A DNA stretch of 64,000 nt from Thiolapillus brandeum (lineage in GTDB: Bacteria > Pseudomonadota > Gammaproteobacteria > Chromatiales > Chromatiaceae): positions 1,550,001 through 1,614,000 of the forward strand of contig NZ_AP012273.1 of the NCBI RefSeq assembly GCF_000828615.1, written 5' to 3'. Shown here piece by piece: positions 27,585 to 38,703 of this stretch. Position numbers and translations under genes: made by a program. The notes under the pieces are model-generated. The model made no database searches and had not been told where the DNA came from. It saw only the letters and a list, made by a program, of their open reading frames with translations. How positions within the stretch are numbered: position 1 is the first letter of the stretch; the number at the start of each line of letters is the position of its first letter.

Positions 27585-28039
27585 TTCTTGCGCTTGCTTC
27601 AATCTAGGGGTCTGTCGGATTTAACGCTGTTTGGCTGCAAATCTCTGGATGGCGATTCACTCAGCTTATCAAACTCGTTAATTCTACTTTGTCATATTTC
27701 CAGCTCCCGTCGCAGGCAGGATTCGAGGGGCTTTTACCTTCGTCGGTGTCGCTCCTGAATGATACGGGCAATACGCTCGGATGTGGATTCCGGTCATGGT
27801 GAAGTGTGCGTTGGCGGTGGTGCAGGGCAAGGCACCACGACGCAGAATAGTTGTTCTATTCCTAGGAGTTGCAACCCAGCCATGCGCCGCTGCAAGCGTG
27901 CAATTCGCCTTGTAGCCTGGCTCATCCAGCAAGTGAATGAGTAAATCAAAGCAACTGCTTGGAAAAACAGTAGCTTAGTATCTGAAAGGAGTGGTCAACT
28001 GAGGATTCTAGGTTCAACGGTTGCCGGACTGGCGCAGAC
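27585..28039. other. Gene-free stretch with one imperfect hairpin
   Basis: I see no credible gene. At 27822-27890 the order GGCAAGGC, then the stem GAATAG-TTGTT-CTATTC, then AACCCAGCC resembles the first hairpin of the structured elements at 32900 and 34252, but the long outer stem is not clear. This may be a decayed copy. Confidence 0.4.
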
Positions 28040-28200
28040 AGGGCAGCCTTCCTTTTTATTTTCAATTTGTTAGGTGCTTCAAACAGAGCACGTATCGGTG
28101 TTGCGGCTTTTGACAAGGGCTTGCCATTGCCTGCAAGCCGCGCCTTGATACGCGCCCTGTTTGAAGCACTGAGGGCGACATATTTGGTCGCCGGGTTTAA
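28040..28200 (+). repeat. Structured element A, partial (right half only)
   Basis: Right half of the element family found complete at 32900 and 34252. Stem 28074-28089 pairs with 28154-28169 (15 of 16 bases). The loop contains the family core (TTGACAAGGG ... CCATTGCC ... CGCCTTGAT), and the end reads GACATATTTGGT then CCGGGTTTAA. The matching left end and first hairpin are missing or unrecognisable. Confidence 0.7.
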
Positions 28201-28429
28201 TAACATTATTATTCTTTCCCAGAGGCAGATAAAGAGCATGATGTGATGCCATTTGGCGGCGCATCAATTCCTCTGGATGGCAGAAGGAGGCAATGGCAAT
28301 CACAGCGACACAGGTTGTGTCTGCGGTATTGTACTGATGCTGAATGGCGATACATCCGGAAAACCATGAACATTCCCAGCCAGATCAACAGTCGGTACAA
28401 TGGTGATACTAGGAATAACGAACCAAATA

Positions 28430-28990
28430 TCAGTGCATGTGCTGACTACTCTCTTCGGTAGTGTGTTTCTCTTGGCCATGACTCCGTTCTCCTTTTCCTG
28501 TCAATGTCGTGTATTCCGTTTTGCTCATATCTTTCAGCCTGGAAACGAAAGCCACCAGCTCCCAGATCTGTTGATCAGTATGAAAGCTTCCCCATGCAGG
28601 CATACCCGTCAGTTTCAGTCCGTTCTTGATTGTCCAGAACATGGCGGCAGGATCATGCGGCGCATGTGCTGACTGGGAAAATGCCGGTGGATTGGGGTAT
28701 AGCCCCTGGTTCAGCTCTGTGGGAGCCATACCCGGAGCAAGATGGCACTGTGCGCACATGGCGGCATAGTTGTTTGCGCCACGGGCGATCATTTCCGGAT
28801 TTTTCAGTTCCGGAACCTTGATGGTCTCGGATCTGACATGGATCGATCTTTCCCTTACTACTTCGAGCAGCTTGGTAGTTAAAGGCCAATGCTTTTCGGT
28901 GGCGGCAATATTGAATAGGCCTAGCCATATAAACAAGCCTCCACCCGCCAGCAGAATGATAATCATGGCCAGGATTGTCTTGATTTTCAT
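28430..28990 (-). CDS. Membrane-anchored c-type cytochrome
   Basis: 186 residues from ATG 28990. One N-terminal membrane anchor (MKIKTILAMIIILLAGGGLF) and a cytochrome c domain with CAQCH and the distal Met in LTGMPAWG. His-rich C-terminal tail. Nine bp after the upstream cytochrome gene, so co-transcribed. Confidence 0.9.
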   Translation of the reverse strand: MKIKTILAMIIILLAGGGLFIWLGLFNIAATEKHWPLTTKLLEVVRERSIHVRSETIKVPELKNPEMIARGANNYAAMCAQCHLAPGMAPTELNQGLYPNPPAFSQSAHAPHDPAAMFWTIKNGLKLTGMPAWGSFHTDQQIWELVAFVSRLKDMSKTEYTTLTGKGERSHGQEKHTTEESSQHMH

Positions 28991-28998
28991 GACGCCTC

Positions 28999-29823
28999 CT
29001 ATTTTCCGCACTGCATGTGCTTGGGTCCCTGGCAATCCAGTGCGCGTTGTCCCCAAAGGCTCTTGATGTAAGCCACCAGGTCGCGCGCATCCTCCTCAGT
29101 CACACCTTCCTTCTTCCAGGCTCTCATTTTTTCTGTGCGCGGTGAGCCATCCAGTATGGTCTTCACCAGGGCATCGTCAGTGTGGTGCCAGGCATGGGCT
29201 GAATCATCCAGGGCAGGGGCTGATATATAGTTCTTGTCTGTCAGTGCCTGCGTTGTGAATGTCTCACCCACGCCGTCCACGCCATGGCAACTTTGGCAGC
29301 GTTGGGTAAAAATCTTTTTTCCACGTTTTCCAGCTTCTGTCAGCGGCTTGTAGTCACTCGGCAGACGCTGCCAGTTTGCTCCGCCATCATTGGAAACAAT
29401 GATTCTTCCAAACTGGTTGAGTCCGGCAAGCTGCCCGGGGTTCGTGGCAGATCCTGACAAGTGTGTGAGCACCTGGGCTCCCAGCTTGTTGCTTATGGGT
29501 GTCCACATACGCTCTTCACCCTGGATGCGAAGCAATCCCTTTCCAGCCATGAAGGCGTAGATTGCACCATCTGGCGTGGAAGCCACGGTGGTGGCGGGCA
29601 GTCGGTAGGGGTAGGAAATCGTCCAGGTTTTTCCTTGGTCGCGGCTCACGTAGAGCCCTTTTTCCGTGGCAGCATGAATCGCCGCAGGCGCTCTGCCCTG
29701 TATGGCTACCCCCATTTTCTTGGGCAGTTCCTGAAGTGATAAGCCCTGAGCCAGAGCAACGGGCGCCAGCAAGATGAGGGAACATGCTGCCAGTGATGCG
29801 TGTACAGGTTTTCTTAACTTCAT
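28999..29823 (-). CDS. Fusion of BNR-repeat-like domain and cytochrome c
   Basis: 274 residues with signal peptide (cleavage near ALA-QGL). Residues about 40-160 hold two BNR/Asp-box-like motifs (LYVSRDQGKTWTISYP and IIVSNDGGANWQRLP), suggesting part of a beta-propeller. The C-terminal 110 residues are a cytochrome c domain with CQSCH and a distal Met candidate in RTEKMRAW. Ends in a Cys-containing tail. The partner or substrate is unknown. Confidence 0.85.
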   Translation of the reverse strand: MKLRKPVHASLAACSLILLAPVALAQGLSLQELPKKMGVAIQGRAPAAIHAATEKGLYVSRDQGKTWTISYPYRLPATTVASTPDGAIYAFMAGKGLLRIQGEERMWTPISNKLGAQVLTHLSGSATNPGQLAGLNQFGRIIVSNDGGANWQRLPSDYKPLTEAGKRGKKIFTQRCQSCHGVDGVGETFTTQALTDKNYISAPALDDSAHAWHHTDDALVKTILDGSPRTEKMRAWKKEGVTEEDARDLVAYIKSLWGQRALDCQGPKHMQCGK

Positions 29824-29917
29824 TGTGGACTCCGTGGGAATTTGTAATGGGAATAAATTTCTGTGACAGCAATTTCATCAGGTAGCCTCATGGCCTTGAG
29901 CTGCAGCAAGAAATTCA

Positions 29918-29933
29918 GGCAAGAAACGAACCA
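29918..29933 (-). promoter_or_regulatory. Candidate sigma-54 promoter before the cytochrome pair
   Basis: Read on the - strand: TGGTTCG-TTTC-TTGCC, with exact GG/GC spacing and an intact TTGC but two mismatches in the -24 element. The expected start would be about 84 bp before the ATG at 29823. Confidence 0.35.
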
Positions 29934-30117
29934 ACATATAAAAACCAGGTGAAAAATACTCGAATCTGAAGGATAGGGGCCTAGCAAGGTCTTGTTTTTT
30001 ACGAGTACACAGGAGGAGAACCCAGTGCTCATGAAATTAGCTGCCACTCACAATCTGAACGGAACATAGAAAAGTTCATCGATTCGTTACACCAATAGTG
30101 ATGAATTGAATTCCTTA

Positions 30118-30152
30118 TGACTGCAGAATGTCTCCGTAAGTTAATGCAGTCA
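30118..30152 (+). other. Inverted repeat upstream of the copper ATPase gene
   Basis: Perfect eight-base arms TGACTGCA / TGCAGTCA separated by 19 bases, 65 bp before the ATPase start. It could be an activator site or a transcript hairpin; the remaining 393-bp divergent gap (29824-30216) shows no gene. Confidence 0.45.
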
Positions 30153-30179
30153 ATGAATAAAGAGATGTTCTCCTGTTGT

Positions 30180-30195
30180 TGGCATGAACCATGCT
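30180..30195 (+). promoter_or_regulatory. Candidate sigma-54-like promoter of the copper ATPase gene
   Basis: TGGCATG-AACC-ATGCT keeps the GG/GC distance with two mismatches. The implied start (about 30206) would cut off the Shine-Dalgarno AAGGAAG (30199-30205), which argues against it. Confidence 0.25.
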
Positions 30196-30216
30196 TGAAA
30201 GGAAGCATAAACAGAT

Positions 30217-32646
30217 ATGTCAGAAATAGACGAGTACAGGAGGCAGCTCATGGGTGAGCCAGCAAGTAAAACCGAGCTTTTCGATCTTAGTGATCCTGTC
30301 TGCGGCATGCAGGTGTCGTCGGAAAGCAAGCATCACACCATTTATGGGGGGGTGGACTACTATTTCTGCAGCGAAGATTGTGAGCAGAAGTTTCTGGCTC
30401 ATCCCGGCAGTTATCTCCACGAAGAAACTGAGCATGCCTCTGAAGAGCACAGCCATCAGCATTCCGAGGGTAGTTGCCATCATGAACATCTGTCTGCGTC
30501 AGCACTGGAACAATCAACCCCTGTGGCTGAAGGCGTGATATACACCTGCCCCATGCACCCCGAGGTTATGCAGGATCATCCGGGCAGCTGCCCCAAGTGT
30601 GGGATGGCCCTGGAGCCACGTGGTGCCGTGGTGGAAGAAGACAACGCGGAACTGGATGATATGACCCGGCGTTTCAAGGTAAGCGCAGTGCTTTCCCTGC
30701 CGGTGTTCATATTGGCCATGATCGCGGACCTGGCTCCCCAGTGGCTGCCGGAGGCGCTTTCCATGCAATCGATTCAATGGATGGAATTCTTCATGGCAAC
30801 ACCGGTGGTGTTATGGGGTGGTTGGCCTTTCTTCGTCCGCGGCTGGCAGTCTGTCAGAACCTGGAATCTGAACATGTTCACCCTGATTGGTCTGGGTGTT
30901 GGTGTGGCCTGGGGTTACAGCGTGGTGGCATTGCTGTTTCCTTCAATCTTTCCTGCCAGCATGCGCCATCCCGATGGCACGGTGCCGGTTTATTTCGAGG
31001 CGGCTGCGGTGATCACAGCCTTGGTGCTGCTCGGCCAGGTGCTGGAGCTTCGGGCGCGCAGTAATACCAATGCAGCCATCAAGTTGCTGCTGGGCTTGGC
31101 ACCCAAGACGGCCAGGGTGATCCGCAACGATGGTAGCGAGGAAGATATTTCCCTGGAATCGGTCATGCCCGGCGATATGCTTCGGGTGCGTCCGGGGGAA
31201 AAGATACCTGTGGATGGAACAGTGACGGAAGGCAGCAGTTCCGTGGACGAATCCATGGTCACGGGTGAACCCATACCCATAGAGAAAGGGCCGGGTGATC
31301 TCGTGATCGGTGCCACCGTGAACGGGGTTGGCAGCTTGGTTATCAAGGCTGAGCGTGTGGGTGCCGACAGCCTGTTGTTCCAGATCGTGCAGATGGTAAG
31401 CGAGGCCCAGCGGTCGCGGGCGCCCATCCAGAAGCTTGCCGATATCGTGGCCGGCTACTTCGTGCCGGCAGTGGTGCTCGTGTCCGTATTGACGCTCATC
31501 ATCTGGGGATTCTGGGGGCCGGAACCGCGCCTTGCCCATGCGGTTATCAATGCCGTAGCGGTGCTGATCATTGCCTGTCCCTGCGCCCTGGGTCTGGCGA
31601 CACCCATGTCCATCATGGTAGGTACAGGCAAGGGAGCCACCCTGGGGGTTCTGATCAAGAACGCCGAAGCCCTGGAAGTGATGGAGAAGGTGGATACCCT
31701 GGTGGTGGACAAGACTGGCACCCTTACCGAGGGCAAGCCCAAGCTGGTGATGATAGAACTGTCGGGTGACCTTTCCGAACGCGAGGTGCTGCGCCTGGTG
31801 GCCAGCCTGGAGCGGGCCAGTGAACATCCCCTGGCGGAAGCCATCGTGGAAGGTGCCAGGGAAAAGGAAATCCGCCTGATTCCTGTGGATAGCTTCAAAT
31901 CACTTATTGGCCGGGGCGTGAAAGGCCAGGTGGAAGGCAAGTCGGTGGCGCTGGGGAACCACAAACTCCTCGATCATCTTTCCATCGATGCAGGAGAGTT
32001 TGCCGAACTGGCGGAAAACGGCCGCAAAGATGGGCAGACCGTGATGTATATGGTCATCGATGACAAGCTGGCCGGTATCCTTGGCGTGGCTGATCCCATC
32101 AAGTCATCAACGGCGGAAGCAGTATCACAGCTGCACAAGGAAGGTATCAGCGTCGTGATGCTCACTGGCGACAACCGGACCACGGCCCAGGCCGTCGCGG
32201 ATAAACTCGGTATCGACCGTGTGGAAGCCGAGGTATTGCCGGATCAGAAGGCTGAAACGGTTCGCAAGCTGCAATCGGAAGGACGCACCGTAGCCATGGC
32301 GGGAGATGGTATCAATGATGCACCGGCGTTGGCCCAGGCCCATGTGGGCATTGCCATGGGTACCGGTACCGACGTGGCCATGGAGAGCGCTGGCGTAACC
32401 CTGGTGAAAGGTGATCTGAGGGGTATTGTGCGGGCCCGCAAGTTGAGTCGTGCAACCATGCGCAATATCCGGCAGAACCTGTTTTTTGCCTTTATTTACA
32501 ATTCCCTGGGTGTGCCTATTGCAGCGGGCGTGCTCTATCCCTTTTTCGGATTGCTGCTGTCACCCATCATTGCCGCGGCGGCCATGAGCTTCAGCTCGGT
32601 ATCGGTGATAGCCAATGCACTGCGACTCAAACGTGTAAAAATTTAA
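30217..32646 (+). CDS. P1B-type copper-transporting ATPase with YHS domain
   Basis: 809 residues. Order: YHS domain (DPVCGMQV ... [10 protein letters not shown], about 27-65), a His-rich linker, a heavy-metal-binding CPMHPEV ... [10 protein letters not shown] module (about 109-132), then the P1B ATPase with CPC in [24 protein letters not shown] (phospho-Asp) and [11 protein letters not shown]. There is no CxxC HMA domain. CPC with the YHS/CPMHP modules is typical of Cu(I)-exporting CopA-like pumps; direct proof of metal is lacking. Confidence 0.93.
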
Positions 32647-32655
32647 GTGAGGTGA

Positions 32656-32886
32656 ATGATGATGTATGAAGGACACTGGTTTGGTTTTGGAGGGGGATTC
32701 ATGTGGATCATCTGGATACTGTTCATCGTGGCCGTGATCTGGGTCATCAGGGCGGCTACTTCCGATAACAACAGCCAGCCACCCGCGAGCCGGGACTCGG
32801 CTCTGGAGATACTCAAGACGCGTTATGCGCGTGGTGAGATCAACACGGAAGAATATGAACGTATGCGCCGTGAAATCGAAACCTGA
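32656..32886 (+). CDS. SHOCT-domain small membrane protein
   Basis: 76 residues. One membrane span (about 12-33, FMWIIWILFIVAVIWVI) and a C-terminal SHOCT motif ALEILKTRYARGEINTEEYERM. Nine bp after the copper ATPase gene with GAGGTG before the start, so co-transcribed. Commonly found next to copper ATPases; molecular role unknown. Confidence 0.85.
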   Translation: MMMYEGHWFGFGGGFMWIIWILFIVAVIWVIRAATSDNNSQPPASRDSALEILKTRYARGEINTEEYERMRREIET

Positions 32887-32899
32887 GAAAGAGATAATA

Positions 32900-33180
32900 T
32901 TAACCCGGCACTCTAATAAGCCATGTTCAGCCGCGCTGTGCGCGTTCACGGCAAGGCGCCGGAACGCCGCTGTAGCACTTCTACAGCCAGTTCCGGCAAC
33001 GCAGTCCGTGGGCGCGCACAGCACGGCCTGTCAATTTCTAATCAATCAGTTAGGAGCCTCAGGCATCTCCCCTCTCGGCGTTGCGCGCCTTGCCAAGGGA
33101 ATAGCCATTGCCTGCGGCGCGCGCCTTGACAGGGAAGATGCCTGAGGCTCTGAACATGACCTATTAGGGTGCCGGGTTAA
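32900..33180 (+). repeat. Structured element B (281 bp, complete)
   Basis: Flanked by 31-bp imperfect inverted ends (TTAACCCGGCAC ... GTGCCGGGTTAA) that pair with few mismatches. Hairpin 1: arms 32931-32951 / 33006-33026, enclosing nested stems GCCGGAAC/GTTCCGGC and GCTGTAG/CTACAGC. Hairpin 2: perfect 15-bp arms 33054-33068 / 33136-33150. No coding content. It lies 14 bp after the SHOCT gene and 4 bp before the next start codon. Confidence 0.85.
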
Positions 33181-33184
33181 TAAG

Positions 33185-33538
33185 ATGAATGCCAAGCTGA
33201 AATATGCTGTTCAGCATCCCTGGGAAATGGCGAGACATCTCCATTTGCCGACGTTGGTTTCTGCAACAGATGCCCAACAGGTTCGAAAAGCCCTGGATGA
33301 AATTCAGGGAATCGAGGATTCGGTTATTGATCTGACCAGGCGGCGCCTTTTGGTGCGATATGATGTCAGGCAACTGGACTACATGACGCTGCTGGGTGCG
33401 CTTGAAAATGCCGGCTATCCAGCATCGTCAAATCTCCTCGACCGCATTTGCGCCAAGCTCTACCAGTATGTTGACACCAATGCCCGGGAAAATGCCAAGG
33501 CGCCACCGCCCGCCTGTTGCAACAAACCACCCAGGTAG
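33185..33538 (+). CDS. HMA-like small protein without the metal cysteines
   Basis: 117 residues. The core SATDAQQVRKALDEIQGIEDSV ... RRLLVRYDVRQLDYMTLLGALENAGYP has an HMA-like beta-alpha-beta pattern with no CxxC. A short C-terminal tail has PPPACCNKPP. No signal peptide. The ATG lies 4 bp after structured element B, without a visible ribosome site, so its original expression signals may have been displaced. Confidence 0.65.
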   Translation: MNAKLKYAVQHPWEMARHLHLPTLVSATDAQQVRKALDEIQGIEDSVIDLTRRRLLVRYDVRQLDYMTLLGALENAGYPASSNLLDRICAKLYQYVDTNARENAKAPPPACCNKPPR

Positions 33539-33620
33539 CAGGGAAGGGCGGTCAGTGGCACGGGTCGTACGCGAACTGTCCCGTGATGCTACGGCTTGAA
33601 GACCCAGTCTATTGCAGCCA

Positions 33621-33637
33621 CCGGGGGTCGTCCCCGG
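33621..33637. terminator. GC-rich hairpin between convergent genes
   Basis: CCGGGG-GTCGT-CCCCGG between the ends of the HMA-like gene and the CDF gene. No T-run on either side, so a bidirectional terminator is only tentative. Confidence 0.35.
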
Positions 33638-33651
33638 GATTGATGTTGTCA

Positions 33652-34814
33652 TCACTCATCCCGGCAGGCATCCAGACTTTGCTCGAGCTCGATTGTGGTA
33701 TGGGAAAAATTGTATGCATCGAGCAGGGTTTTGACGGCTTGCTTGATTTCCGCCTGTACGCTGGCGTCAATCGATGTATCGAGCAACAGGTGTGCCGTCA
33801 ACATGTGGTGCTCTCCATCCAGGGACCAGATGTGCAAATGGTGTATATCAGCGATGTGATTCAACGCCAGCAATTTGTCCCTGATTTCCCCGGCGATATC
33901 CTTGTCCGGTGCCGCCTGCATGAACAGCTGGATGGTTTGAGAAAAGCGTTTGAGAACATTGATCAGAATAAACAGGGTAAACCCGATAGAGAGGATGGGG
34001 TCCAGGATTGGCCATTGGGCAAACAGCAACACAATACTGACGATCAGCACGGCCACCCAACCCAGTACATCTTCCAGCAGATGCCAGTTGAGCACCTTTT
34101 CATTCAGCGTCTTTCCGCCGCTGAGTTTGTAGGCGGCAATGCCATTGACGGTTACCCCGAGTATGGCCAGACTTGTCATGCCAACAGCGTCTGGCATTTG
34201 AGGTTCCACCAGCCTGGGTATGGCTTCGGTCAGCACCCATAGGCTACTATATTAACCCGACCACCAAATATGTTGGGTTCAGCTGTCGCGTGCTTGCCTA
34301 CGGCAAGGCATCAAAGCGCCGCTGTAGCATTTCTACAACAAGCTTTGATAACGCAGTCCGTAGGTAAGCACACGACAGCCTGTCTTTAAAAATAAATTTG
34401 GTAGGGGCATCAAGCCTGTCCCGTCTCTGCGTTGTGGCTCTTGCTAAGGGAATCACCCTTGGCGGCGAGCCACGCCTTGATACGCAACAGGCTTGATGCC
34501 CTGAACCCGACATATTTGGTGGCCGGGTTAATAATGACAAGGATGGCGCCATTGAGCAACGCACCCAGCAATGACAACCTTCGGTAGCCGTAAGTGAATC
34601 TGTGATCAGCGCTTTTCCTGCCTGATTTATCCAGAAGCCAGCCGAGGCCGATGGCAAGGGTGTCGCCCAGGTCGTGTACGGCATCTGCCATGATGGAGGT
34701 GCTGTTGGTCAGTACACCACCAACAAATTCGATGATGGTAAAAATGAAGTTCAGGAAAAATGCGAAGCCAATTCTTTCCCCGCTGTGATGGTGGTCATGA
34801 TGATGAGCTGACAT
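33652..34814 (-). pseudogene. CDF cation efflux gene (czcD-like) split by element C
   Basis: The N-terminal part (34814 down to about 34532) reads MSAHHHDHHHSGERIGFAFF ... TSIMADAVHDLGDTLAIG ... GALLNGAILVI, a His-rich CDF start with the HxxxD-type metal site. The C-terminal part (from about 34250 to 33652) resumes VLTEAIPRLVEPQ ... NWHLLEDVLGWVAV and a cytoplasmic domain (HHLHIWSLDGEHHMLTAH). The 280-bp structured element lies exactly at the break. Simple removal of it does not restore frame by my count, so a second lesion is possible. Presumably non-functional. Confidence 0.88.
34252..34531 (+). repeat. Structured element C (280 bp, complete)
   Basis: 31-bp ends pair with two mismatches (TTAACCCGACCACC ... 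GGTGGCCGGGTTAA). Hairpin 1: 34282-34303 / 34358-34379 (20 of 22 paired), with an inner AGC-rich stem around GTAGCATTTCTAC. Hairpin 2: perfect 15-bp arms 34405-34419 / 34487-34501. Inserted in a czcD-like gene. The long stems share little sequence with those of element B. Confidence 0.9.
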
Positions 34815-35448
34815 CGGAATCTTCCCCCGTGCTACTGCAACGACCCGGATCAGCAGCCAATTCCTGTTGGGCATCCAGGATGATGTGCCTGGCTCCGCGC
34901 AGGATTATAACCACGATGAGACTGCCGATGATCAGATCCGGCCAACGGCTGTCGAGCAGCCAGACGAGCAGCCCGCTAAGGATTATTCCCGTGTTGGCTA
35001 TCACGTCGTTCTTGGAAAAGACCCAGCTGGCGCGCATGTGGACTTCACCTTCACGGTGTTTCTGGATGAGCACCAGGCACCAGACATTGGCCGCCAGTGC
35101 GACGACGCCCATGCCCATCATCAGTGTCGATACGGGTTCACTGCCATAGATTGCGCGCCGGATTATGTCCACCAGGATCAACAGCGCGAGCAATCCCTGG
35201 GCCCAGCCGCTGAACAGGGCGGCGCGAGCCTTGTGCGCAAGGCTCTGACCCACGGCATAAAGCCCGATGCCATACACCGTGGCATCGGCCAGCATGTCCA
35301 GGGAATCGGCGATGAGTCCGGTGGATTGGGCATACCAGCCAATGCTCAGTTCGATGACGAACATCACGCCGTTGATGGCCAGTAGAGTCCACAGAACCCG
35401 GCTTTGTTCCTGGTCTTTTATTTCGATGTCACAACCACAATCACTCAT
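34795..35448 (-). CDS. CDF-family cation transporter, short form
   Basis: 217 residues with six membrane spans and CDF metal-site motifs ADSLDMLADA and SKNDVIANTGI. N-terminal MSDCGCDIE adds a Cys pair. It lacks the usual cytoplasmic C-terminal domain. It overlaps the start of the split CDF gene by 20 bp and follows czcA by 67 bp. Likely exports Zn/Co/Cd-type divalent cations with proton exchange. Confidence 0.85.
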   Translation of the reverse strand: MSDCGCDIEIKDQEQSRVLWTLLAINGVMFVIELSIGWYAQSTGLIADSLDMLADATVYGIGLYAVGQSLAHKARAALFSGWAQGLLALLILVDIIRRAIYGSEPVSTLMMGMGVVALAANVWCLVLIQKHREGEVHMRASWVFSKNDVIANTGIILSGLLVWLLDSRWPDLIIGSLIVVIILRGARHIILDAQQELAADPGRCSSTGEDSDVSSSS

Positions 35449-35514
35449 TTATGTATTCTCTCATGTAGGGCGGGTCGGGCCGGTTCCCAACAGCAGTTCA
35501 GGCCCGACCCGCGT

Positions 35515-38500
35515 TCAGCCTTGCTGGCTTCTGCGTGAGAAGAAGCCATAAAGACTGGGCAGCACATACAGCGTCAACAAGGTGCTCGATGCCAACCCGC
35601 CCACCACCACGGTGGCCAGTGGACGCTGCACTTCGGAACCCACTCCTGTTGCCAGCAGCATGGGAATCAGGCCCAGGGCCGCAATGGCCGCCGTCATGAG
35701 CACCGGTCGCAGGCGTGACAGGGCACCCCGGAATACCGCCTCCTGCACCCCTTCACCTGCCTCGATGTTCTGATTGATGGCATTGACCATCACCACACCG
35801 TTGAGTACCGCCACGCCGAACAGAGCGATAAAGCCGATGGAGCCGGGCACCGACAAATACTGCCCTGTCACATAGAGCGCCACGATACCGCCAATCAGCG
35901 CCAGGGGGACATTGATCATGATCAGCAATGCCTGGCCCACGGAATGAAAAGCGAAATACAGCAGCAGGAAGATCAGCCCCAAGGACAAGGGTACCACGAT
36001 CATCAGGCGTTTCTGGGCACGTTCCTGATTCTCGAACTGGCCGCCGAAAACGACGGAATAGCCTGCTGGCAGGTCCACCTCGCCGGCAATACGGTCACGC
36101 AGCTCTTTTACCAGGCTGCCCATGTCACGTCCCTCGACGTTGGACTGGATCACCACCCTTCGCTGCACATCATCCCGGCGGATCTGTGGCGGACCGGATT
36201 CGATGACCACGTCGGCCACATCGCCCAGGCGCACCCAGGCGCCCCCCGGCGCCTGCAGGACCAGTTTTCGTACCGTCTCCACGTCCTTGCGGTATTCATG
36301 TGCCATGCGAACGTAGATATCGTAGCGTTCGTTGCCACGGATGACCTGTCCCGCCTCGGTTCCGCCAATGCCATCAGAAACCAGATCCATCACCTGTGAG
36401 ACAGGGATGCCGTAGCGTGCCAGGATGTCCCGTTTGGGACGAACAGTCAGCTGCGCTTCGCCGGCAATCTGTTCCATTTCCACGTCACGGGTGCCCTGGA
36501 CCTTGCGCGCCAGTTGTTCGATGGCCTTGCCTTTTTGAGCCAATACATCGAGTTCCGGGCCGAACAGCTTGATGGCCAGCTGGGCTTTCACGCCGGAGAG
36601 CAGTTCATCCACCCGCGTGGCGATGGGCTGGGAAAAAGTAAACAGCAGGCCCGGATGTACCGAAAGTGCCTCCTGAAATTTTTTCTGTAACTCAAAACGA
36701 TTCTTTGCAGTGGTCCATTCCTCCACGGGCTTCAATCCGACATAGATCTCCACGTTGGAAACCGGTTCAGGATCGCCACCCAGTTCGGCACGGCCGACAC
36801 GGCTGGAGGCATAGGTCACTTCCGGGAACTTCATCAACCGTTTTTCCAGTTCTGCCGCCACTTTCAAAGAGGTATCCAGGCTGGCAGAGGGCGCCAGGGT
36901 AATGCGAATGTTGATAGTGCCTTCTTCCAGCTCGGGAACGAACTCTGTTCCCAGCCGGGGCAGCAGTGCCAGAGCACCGACGAGCAGTGACAAGGCCACT
37001 ACTACCACCAGCCAGCGCGCCCGGAGTGCAAAGCCCAAAGTGTTTTGGTACAGCCATTCCAGGGGGCGGAACAGCGGACTCTCACGGTGTTTCACGGCAC
37101 GACGGAAGCTGTAGGTGGCCAGGGCGGGTATCACCACCAGGGCTACTACCAGGGAGGTGATCATGGCCAGCACGATGGAGATGGCCATGGGCTGGAACAG
37201 CTTTCCTTCAACACCTTCCAGGGTGAACAGGGGGGCAAATACCACGATAATGATGATCACCGCGTAGAAGATCGGGCGGCCCACTTCGCGTGCCGCTTCC
37301 TGTATGCGCAGTGGAATGCCGAAGTGGTCATGGGATGCGTCGTAGGGATCGGGGTCATCGGGTGCAATATCGGACTGCACCTTGTCGTCGTGTTCCGGAT
37401 CGGGGTGGGAAAGGTGTTTGAAGATGTTCTCCATCATCACCACCGAGCCGTCCACCATCATGCCGATGGCGATGGCCAGACCACCCAGGGACATAAGGTT
37501 GGCAGACAACCCCCAATAGCTCATGGCCGTCAAAGCCAAGCCTACCGACAGGGGTACCGAAATCAGAACCAGCAGGGTGGCACGGATATTGAGCAGGAAC
37601 AGCAAGAGTACGATAACAATGAGTACGAAGGCCTCTATGAGCGCTTTGCTTACTGTTTCCACGGCCCGTTCAACCAAATCGGCCTGATCATAAAAGGACT
37701 CGATGGTGACCCCCTTGGGCAATGCCTGCTGGATGGCAGGCAAGCGCGCCTTGACCGCATCGATAGTGGATTTGGTGTTGGCTCCAAGACGCTTTAGCAC
37801 GATACCGGCTACCACTTCTCCCAGGGATTCCGGATTGCCGTTTGCATCACGGCGGGTCATGGTGACGGCACCCTGGCGAATTTCTCCACCGAAGGCCACC
37901 CTGGCCACATCGCGCACGCGTACGACCACACCGCCCTCGTCTTTGAGCGGGACATTACGGATATCCTGCAGGCCATCCACACCAGCCCGTACCCAGCCCA
38001 CGCCACGGATCACAAGCTGCTCTGAGCCCCGGTCCAGGTACCAGCCGCCGGCATTGCGGTTGTTGGTTTCGATAGCCTCGGCGATTTGATCGATGCTAAG
38101 ACCATAAGAAAGAAGTTTTTGTGGATCCACCTGCACCTGATACTGACGAACCTCGCCACCATAAGAGAGTACGTCGGTGATGCCATCCACAGGCAGAAGC
38201 AACAGTTTTACTACCCAGTCGTTGAGACTGCGCAGAGCAGTGGCATCGTATTTGGGATCTTCAGAACGCAGGATATACTGGTACACCTGACCCAGTCCGG
38301 AGGTATTGGGACCCATCTCGGGTGTGCCCACGCCTTCCGGGATTTCCTCGCGCGCCGCCTGCAGTCTTTCGAAGACCAACTGGCGGGCAAAATAGATATC
38401 TGTGCTTTCCTTGAAAACCACCGTGATCACGGAAAGCCCTGTTTTGGAGATGGAACGTACCTCTTCCACGTCGGGCAGGGCATACATGACTGCCTCGATG

Positions 38501-38703
38501 GGGTAGGTGATGAGTTGTTCCACTTCCTCGGCAGCCAGGCCCTCGGCCTCGGTATTGATCTGCACCTGGACATTGGTTACATCAGGAAAGGCATCCAGAT
38601 TGAGGCGTGGAATCAGCAGGGCTGCGGCAGCCAATACCGCCAGCAGTCCGAGGGTGACCAACAGCCGGTTGGACACGGACCAGTCAATGAGTTTGTTCAG
38701 CAT
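35515..38703 (-). CDS. czcA: Heavy-metal RND efflux pump, CzcA type
   Basis: 1062 residues, 12 membrane spans with two large periplasmic loops. TM4 carries AIGMMVDGSVVMMEN, the divalent-cation pattern rather than the CusA one, and the periplasmic FSQPIATRVDELLSGVKAQLAIKLFG is CzcA-like. The Cu-specific methionine triad is not apparent. It drives trans-envelope export with the MFP (czcB, disrupted) and OMP (czcC). Sixteen bp after czcB. Confidence 0.88.
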   Translation of the reverse strand: MLNKLIDWSVSNRLLVTLGLLAVLAAAALLIPRLNLDAFPDVTNVQVQINTEAEGLAAEEVEQLITYPIEAVMYALPDVEEVRSISKTGLSVITVVFKESTDIYFARQLVFERLQAAREEIPEGVGTPEMGPNTSGLGQVYQYILRSEDPKYDATALRSLNDWVVKLLLLPVDGITDVLSYGGEVRQYQVQVDPQKLLSYGLSIDQIAEAIETNNRNAGGWYLDRGSEQLVIRGVGWVRAGVDGLQDIRNVPLKDEGGVVVRVRDVARVAFGGEIRQGAVTMTRRDANGNPESLGEVVAGIVLKRLGANTKSTIDAVKARLPAIQQALPKGVTIESFYDQADLVERAVETVSKALIEAFVLIVIVLLLFLLNIRATLLVLISVPLSVGLALTAMSYWGLSANLMSLGGLAIAIGMMVDGSVVMMENIFKHLSHPDPEHDDKVQSDIAPDDPDPYDASHDHFGIPLRIQEAAREVGRPIFYAVIIIIVVFAPLFTLEGVEGKLFQPMAISIVLAMITSLVVALVVIPALATYSFRRAVKHRESPLFRPLEWLYQNTLGFALRARWLVVVVALSLLVGALALLPRLGTEFVPELEEGTINIRITLAPSASLDTSLKVAAELEKRLMKFPEVTYASSRVGRAELGGDPEPVSNVEIYVGLKPVEEWTTAKNRFELQKKFQEALSVHPGLLFTFSQPIATRVDELLSGVKAQLAIKLFGPELDVLAQKGKAIEQLARKVQGTRDVEMEQIAGEAQLTVRPKRDILARYGIPVSQVMDLVSDGIGGTEAGQVIRGNERYDIYVRMAHEYRKDVETVRKLVLQAPGGAWVRLGDVADVVIESGPPQIRRDDVQRRVVIQSNVEGRDMGSLVKELRDRIAGEVDLPAGYSVVFGGQFENQERAQKRLMIVVPLSLGLIFLLLYFAFHSVGQALLIMINVPLALIGGIVALYVTGQYLSVPGSIGFIALFGVAVLNGVVMVNAINQNIEAGEGVQEAVFRGALSRLRPVLMTAAIAALGLIPMLLATGVGSEVQRPLATVVVGGLASSTLLTLYVLPSLYGFFSRRSQQG

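Follow-up and report, generated by a model that had tools for sequence, protein, structure and literature searches.

Miniature IS630-type elements in Thiolapillus brandeum and other bacteria with two inverted hairpin arms, in which one strand is probably selected to fold

Among the closest described systems is RUP (IS630-Spn1) of Streptococcus pneumoniae, an IS630-derived miniature inverted-repeat transposable element (MITE) of 107 bp (PMC2229807). The elements analyzed here lie in a window of 64,000 nucleotides of the Thiolapillus brandeum genome (contig NZ_AP012273.1, positions 1,550,001 to 1,614,000). Like RUP, they are short and multi-copy, with end repeats of IS630 type, TA at the insertion point and presumed movement in trans; they differ from it in having two homologous arms, inverted relative to each other, whose internal loop is conserved, an arrangement that the accessible part of the RUP account does not describe (PMC2229807). 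Correia or NEMIS elements of Neisseria share with them TA ends, terminal inverted repeats, a folding transcript and, in the long form, a site for integration host factor (IHF) (PMC2229807, PMC10969869). The Neisseria elements, however, come in forms of 107 and 155 bp with other ends, and arms with CAAGGC and AACGC are not described in the portions of these sources at hand, whereas the elements reported here measure 280 bp and have two arms. The CIR repeats of Caulobacter and Brucella resemble ours in having two long inverted-repeat arms and a linker, kept between species; in the section of the source dealing with them, CIR is marked by GANTC at the terminal loop and has no end-to-end stem, whereas in the present elements an outer stem encloses inverted homologous arms (PMC2229807). 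The R0 and R2 repeats of Pseudomonas fluorescens also fold, are intergenic, have inverted ends that equal those of resident insertion sequences and show a tail-repeat-tail bias; as far as the available description goes, they are set apart by lengths of 89 and 110 bp and by inverted repeats around a variable core (PMC2718517).

Neither the head of a repetitive extragenic palindromic (REP) sequence nor an attC core pair was recognized by eye in the elements, and no search for integrase or RAYT genes was made. Integron attC sites, which function as folded single strands with variable complementary stems, and REPINs, which are inverted hairpin pairs in intergenic DNA, are comparable systems. REP palindromes, however, are 20–40 bp long, with a GTAG-like head and a tyrosine transposase, whereas the arms described here are about 100 bp, and an integron attC is defined by a core-site pair and an integrase-mediated cassette context, whereas the present copies are dispersed. 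No description of the arm or of the family was found in the open-access PMC literature; subscription papers and ISfinder were outside this search, so single families, for example of Vibrio, may be described already. Judged by its ends, the element belongs to the IS630-type MITEs; its interior represents a new variant.

The window contains two full copies and one truncated copy (Table 1). We consider it rather likely that they are non-autonomous elements of IS630 type (Tc1/mariner-like), built from two halves in inverted orientation, and that the strand bearing CAAGGC is selected to fold. Each half has an end repeat on its outer side and a hairpin arm further in. In the fold of the two full copies, of 280–281 bp, an outer stem encloses two long hairpins, H1 and H2, which contain internal helices and are separated by an AT-rich spacer; the core of the second hairpin is the reverse complement of that of the first. 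The two-hairpin order and the length near 280 bp given in the original prediction, made from the letters of the window, were thereby borne out. Its stem letters and coordinates for the three copies also agreed with a check of the sequence: positions 33054–33068 pair perfectly with 33136–33150, as do 34405–34419 with 34487–34501, and 28074–28089 are complementary to 28154–28169 bar one A.C mismatch. In the truncated copy, near 28040, the left end is missing, as is the greater part of H1. Compared with shuffled sequence, RNA folding gave z = −15.6 for 34245–34540 and z = −14.3 for 32893–33190, and DNA folding gave z = −13.9 for the first of these, the sole copy so tested.

A DNA search with copy A revealed 19 full-length copies in the home genome (G000, 3.15 Mb), copy A included, the other 18 at 68–72% identity and with partial ones besides; this dispersal is in line with the mobile structured element that had been proposed. 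Matches to copy A were present in 11 of 38 genomes, namely the home genome, 9 of 14 congeners and one genome of another genus in the family, and no match was obtained when plasmids and phages were searched with copy A by distant blastn. A GTDB scan for the end sequence returned 101 stretches; titles among the 80 listed were Thiolapillus brandeum, Sedimenticola, Ca. Thiodiazotropha, Chromatiales, Microbulbifer, Thiorhodospira, Pseudothauera and others. Filtering of 82 candidate end pairs (score >190, length 268–284, repeats removed) left 63 copies, which fall into 15 subfamilies at 15% divergence. All but two measure 278–283 bp (61/63), the remaining ones 269 and 276 bp. In an alignment of one representative of each subfamily (A2), 95.3% of 1575 cells were paired (shuffled 77.3%), and changes on both sides were observed in 70 of 105 pairs (shuffled 38.5) and in 275 cells (shuffled 76.2). 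The covariation score was 0.520 versus 0.171 in the shuffle control, which leaves relatedness in place, and 0.069–0.098 for slid partners. The outer stem accounted for 28 pairs, of which 15 had changed on both sides. As predicted, the stems covary across the subfamilies, and their sequences have changed instead of being conserved without covariation.

The elements begin with TTAACCCGG and end with CCGGGTTAA, bordered by TA, which stands on both sides in 59 of 71 element calls. At locus L074, in Thiorhodospira sibirica, both of these ends flank a 345-aa gene with DDE_3 and helix-turn-helix domains, which encodes an IS630-type transposase. Ends of the form ...CCGGGTTAATA, or a close variant, occur within ~30 bp past an IS630-like gene in two congeners (L141, L142) and in a more distant genome (L143); the gene of L142 contains stops, and the L143 match is split in two pieces with the middle gone. 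Transposases of the L074 type were matched in 2 of 11 other congeneric genomes searched, one of them with stops. Because their ends equal those of IS630-type genes elsewhere, the elements are classified, by ends, as putative IS630-type MITEs. At ~280 bp they are multi-copy and too short for a transposase gene, and they probably moved in trans, a transposase supplied from elsewhere presumably acting at TA targets. A piggyBac-like reading (TTAA and CCC) was abandoned once the ends matched IS630-type genes. Within the TTAACCCGG group, the spacer fits the IHF consensus WATCAANNNNTTR at ≤1 mismatch in 11 of 15 subfamilies against 0.36 expected from shuffles, an excess to which shared descent contributes.

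Each arm runs through a stem of ~22 bp, CAAGGC, a helix of ~7 bp, a small internal loop, a helix and a loop, and returns via AACGC. The CAAGGC/AACGC internal loop is found in both arms in inverted orientation, the H2 motif being on the other strand, and CAAGGC is met first when going inwards from either end. A covariance model (R1) built from 29 hand-chosen H1 arms (alignment A3), with both-side changes in 27 of 35 pairs, also recognized arm 2 of L222, L225, L235 and L241, with the match lying on the opposite strand. Neighbouring matches on opposite strands were counted in loci L188–L321, home-genome loci included; 27 of the 28 pairs were '+-' (21 different elements, the other 6 being repeat finds of places already counted), the single '-+' pair bridged two adjacent elements, and 70 arms were without a detected partner. 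Some two-arm elements have no AT-rich spacer (L222, L229, L235, L239, L252, L255, L256); there a mini-hairpin joins the arms, often CCCTNCGGG, which corresponds to an RNA tetraloop of UNCG type on one strand and to a DNA loop of GNA type on its complement.

Covariation alone is insufficient to establish that a folded single strand is under selection, since a palindrome whose arms are repaired from each other can look the same. Mismatches offer a test on the premise that a folded single strand tolerates G.T (G.U) and rejects A.C, the complementary strand showing the reverse. Pooled mismatches (138 G.T, 159 A.C) showed no wobble preference, as pure repair would give, until they were split by arm, since two opposite leanings cancel. 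Counted in cells on the + strand, with four columns of common G.T or A.C set aside, G.T and A.C amounted to 69 and 23 in H1, 14 and 73 in H2, and 49 and 43 in the outer stem; the columns set aside held 47 and 0, 61 and 2, and 1 and 20, respectively. When changes were placed on a tree, G.T to A.C on the CAAGGC strand stood at 33:14 in H1 and 33:13 in H2, in total 66:27 (p 6e-5; p values are guides only, since the arms are related). Without positions 6–8 from the loop the total was 50:24 (p 0.003), with 23:13 in H1 and 27:11 in H2. By kind of change, C>T to G>A was 37:22 and A>G to T>C 13:2 without the wobble site. In the outer stem, the tree changes were 19:29.

A first count in divergent arms, near-duplicates removed, gave 70:15 for 71 arms and 45:9 for the 39 arms from L188 on, home-genome loci excluded. 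A positional count in 93 arms (from 305, near-duplicates removed) gave 107:37, and located 57 G.T and 1 A.C at a wobble site 6–8 bp from the loop. Outside this site, the 60 arms from L188 on, again without home-genome loci, showed 39:19 (p 0.012). Position 23, at the arm foot, held 11 A.C cells. Arms of both kinds thus keep a strand-polar wobble site next to the loop; at other positions the polar lean is weaker. This strand-polar asymmetry argues, with moderate strength, that the CAAGGC strand of each arm is under selection to fold as a single strand. The outer stem has no such polar sign, as expected if its halves are merely held to match one transposase. The original claim that covariation reflects selection on a folded single strand is supported, moderately, for the two arms and not for the outer stem.

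Arms also occur singly beside genes. In one genus, 12 of 41 genomes had one R1 match each; 11 of these 12, and L233 from another genus, share the following sequence, which in L230 is the end of pstB (TIGR00972), and L280 differs. Single arms were also found behind groEL (L227), a superoxide dismutase gene (L223) and thrC (L242). Of 33 arms examined, 14 had a gene end within 60 nt, 17 such ends in all; orientation was antisense in 12 cases and sense in 5, one arm being represented by two frames on the same side. All 10 arms lying ≤20 nt from a stop codon were antisense to the gene; this limit was set with the list in view (the closest sense case lies 21 nt away), and the set includes related cases (three pstB, two alike behind thrC-type genes). 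The antisense placement suggests that the favoured fold arises in what approaches the gene from downstream, and not in its own mRNA, and leads us to guess that the arm is a directional guard against incoming transcripts. In 11 arms behind pstB, 10 paired columns showed G.T and 2 A.C on the strand opposite the pstB mRNA.

By eye, arms were seen behind about seven other end types besides TTAACCCGG (Table 1), and on sequence grounds the interior appears common to different element families, the ends not. Of 369 gammaproteobacterial genomes, 14 contained the arm-1 core pattern (≤3 mismatches), whose reversed control gave 2 hits in all. R1 had matches in 35 of 398 genomes of Pseudomonadota (E≤0.001) and in 65 of the 369 of Gammaproteobacteria (E≤0.0001), own genome counted, in scans that scored only the top few candidates per genome and whose E-values are rough. 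A decoy model (R2) of the same structure with shuffled cores, from 25 of the 29 sequences, matched none of the 398. Distant blastn against plasmids retrieved 7 records of Vibrio and Photobacterium for L229 and none for L226 and L222. Viral contigs contained the arm-1 core at 3 loci, one of which (L219) was judged by eye not to be an arm. It is conceivable, though we hold it with less than even confidence, that the arm is a free-standing module that functions as a folded single strand and has a fixed CAAGGC/AACGC internal loop with a conserved wobble site next to it, and that it has been built as inverted pairs into several end types across Gammaproteobacteria and kept singly beside pstB, groEL, sod and thrC. 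In an inverted pair, any entrant would meet a correctly oriented arm first.

If the CAAGGC strand is selected to fold, the arm would most likely act in RNA, as a directional hairpin for transcripts entering from outside, a stop or processing site that shields what lies behind it. Action in RNA is preferred because the first arm met from either end has CAAGGC polarity; within the selection reading, RNA is given slightly better than an even chance and single-stranded DNA slightly worse. Single-stranded DNA, taken by itself, is the first alternative: the hairpin would serve in replication or transposition, as attC sites or REP elements do, with one correct arm per DNA strand. G.T is tolerated in DNA as well, and the antisense position of the CAAGGC strand in the 10 closest single arms and the mismatch columns of the 11 pstB arms fit DNA too. 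IS630-type transposases, however, act on double-stranded DNA, and we regard this alternative, whose share is contained in the selection reading, as rather unlikely.

Several results weigh against selection on a fold, or against the mobile history proposed with it. Concerning mobility, the L074-type transposase had no match in the home genome; a linked transposase, which the original prediction had proposed to look for, exists in L074 and beside the ends of L141, L142 and L143, and the lack of a match at home, with the same ends at IS630-type genes elsewhere, agrees with its suggestion of movement in trans. With regard to TA duplication, no empty insertion site was found among the compared loci, and the flanks of copy A, joined with one TA removed, did not give one open frame. 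Concerning the fold, one of the columns set aside, located in H2, reads T.G on the + strand for 61 copies, which is A.C on the CAAGGC strand, and its inclusion brings H2 to 75:75. The change events were counted by parsimony, and the tree used for this was derived from the alignment itself. Unpaired sites showed C>T to G>A of 15:3 in H1 and 9:8 in H2, and A>G to T>C of 5:12 and 7:5; in view of the unpaired sites of H1, part of the C>T excess may be mutational, whereas the A>G part is not so explained. Outside the wobble site, the 93 arms gave 50:36 (p 0.16), a weak excess, and decoy R2 lacks any known positive genome to prove that it can ring. Much of the 70:15 ratio is one conserved wobble site, which, together with these adverse controls, limits our confidence in fold selection.

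A second alternative, palindrome repair in ordinary IS630-type MITEs, requires no selection on a fold: template switching or conversion between arms would copy mutations across, and stems would drift and yet stay complementary. Both-side changes exceed random placement on every branch class of the 63-copy tree, with 51 versus 8.2 on terminal and 133 versus 17.1 on internal branches, and those on short terminal branches (4 versus 0.48), a further point against selection, fit repair too. So does a double change from A-T to C-G confined to one copy (L049) within a near-identical subfamily, and the cores flipped in both arms of L115 and in one arm of L069, as seen by eye, are what inverted-repeat recombination would produce. 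The weakness of the G.T excess outside the wobble site in divergent arms also speaks for repair. Repair, however, predicts equal G.T and A.C and equal strands, whereas changes in H1 and H2 alike lean to G.T on the CAAGGC strand, also when the wobble site is left out (50:24). It does not predict the kept mismatch site near the loop (57:1), and leaves unexplained the conserved loop sequence and the arm orientation behind other end types. We judge repair without selection to be quite unlikely. That the copies are decayed fragments of one coding transposon is extremely improbable: a gene-bearing element with the same ends does exist (L074), but the narrow range of copy lengths and the conserved fold in common were not those of scattered remains, and a transposase-like frame was not recognized in the copies by eye, no separate search having been made.

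Table 1. Features of the element copies in the window and end types behind which arms were seen
Feature	Position or source	Strand	Remarks
Full copy A (TTAACCCG...CGGGTTAA)	34252..34531	+	TA at 34250-34251 and 34532-34533; splits cation-efflux gene
Copy A outer stem, left half (terminal inverted repeat)	34252..34281	+	Partner 34503-34531; limits from alignment A2
Copy A hairpin arm 1 (H1)	34282..34379	+	Core CAAGGC 34304-34309, AACGC 34350-34354
Copy A AT-rich inter-arm spacer	34380..34403	+	IHF-like motif WATCAANNNNTTR degraded here (2 mismatches); present in most subfamilies
Copy A hairpin arm 2 (H2)	34404..34502	-	+ strand GCGTT 34429-34433 ... GCCTTG 34474-34479, i.e. CAAGGC...AACGC on - strand
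Copy A outer stem, right half (terminal inverted repeat)	34503..34531	+	
Full copy B, different subfamily, same architecture	32900..33180	+	CAAGGC 32952-32957; TA both sides
Truncated copy: arm 1 end, spacer, entire arm 2, right end with one extra T	28034..28204 (start and end approximate)	+	Near L004/L006 subfamily
Cation-efflux gene, C-terminal part, interrupted by copy A	33652..34236	-	Cation_efflux profile positions 85-196
Cation-efflux gene, N-terminal part	34532..34874	-	Cation_efflux profile positions 4-80; ORF continues into element
Arm end type TACTAAGCCGAACC	G079		By eye
Arm end type TAGGGAAGCTCTGATT	G250		By eye
Arm end type TAGGGCGTGTTGA	G161, G498		By eye; 267-269 bp end to end
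Arm end type TATACCCATC/AAGT	G429, L229		By eye; similar DNA on Vibrio and Photobacterium plasmids
Arm end types CTAGTGTCCCGTC (L222) and similar TAGTGTCCTGTCCC (L235, L241)	L222, L235, L241		By eye
Arm end type GCACCATATAGTTTA	L225, L251		By eye
One-arm end type TTAACCTCAGTTCGGGATAAG	G709		By eye

The three copies in the window lie in or near a metal-handling neighbourhood (28430–38703) with a copper-type P-ATPase gene (30217–32646), cation-efflux genes and, by eye, cytochrome-like genes and an RND pump. No Rfam 15 match above curated threshold was found in the window; at E up to 10, copy A drew microRNA, snoRNA and lncRNA models only, far below thresholds, which were dismissed as chance. In 20 relative loci Rfam gave no match on the arms, the only hit being a SAM riboswitch (RF00162) at L242:2956-3095, ~1.4 kb from the single arm behind thrC. 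Genome G079, with arms behind other ends, has a further repeat family of 18 sites like TAGGGAACCTCTGATTAATT.

Variants of the element were also observed. Both-ended short elements of 133–142 bp in the home genome (G000:C1 403251-403383, 1249795-1249936, 1969254-1969386) are perhaps one-arm versions, like L090:7654-7815. Three home-genome loci (L002, L003, L008) have ~25 bp in common outside one end, with a second end-like sequence, perhaps a doubled end. A version of 728 bp (L077:4899-5626) holds inside the spacer a foreign stretch with another inverted repeat (CATTCCGGCGGATGCCGGAATC). Minimal palindromes of 33–37 bp, consisting of hardly more than the two end repeats joined together, recur in related genomes (L040, L047, L052, L079, L080, L085, L098, L109, L113, L121, L130); they may be either a mobile form of their own or deletion products.

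Small mobile repeats of bacteria are usually viewed as leftover ends, whose folding is a mere result of their inverted repeats; here the interior is common to families and bears a sign of strand-specific selection. If this is true, some factor would read the arm hairpin in many bacteria. For any family of inverted repeats, the comparison of G.T with A.C mismatches is an aid, not available from covariation by itself, in telling selection apart from palindrome repair.

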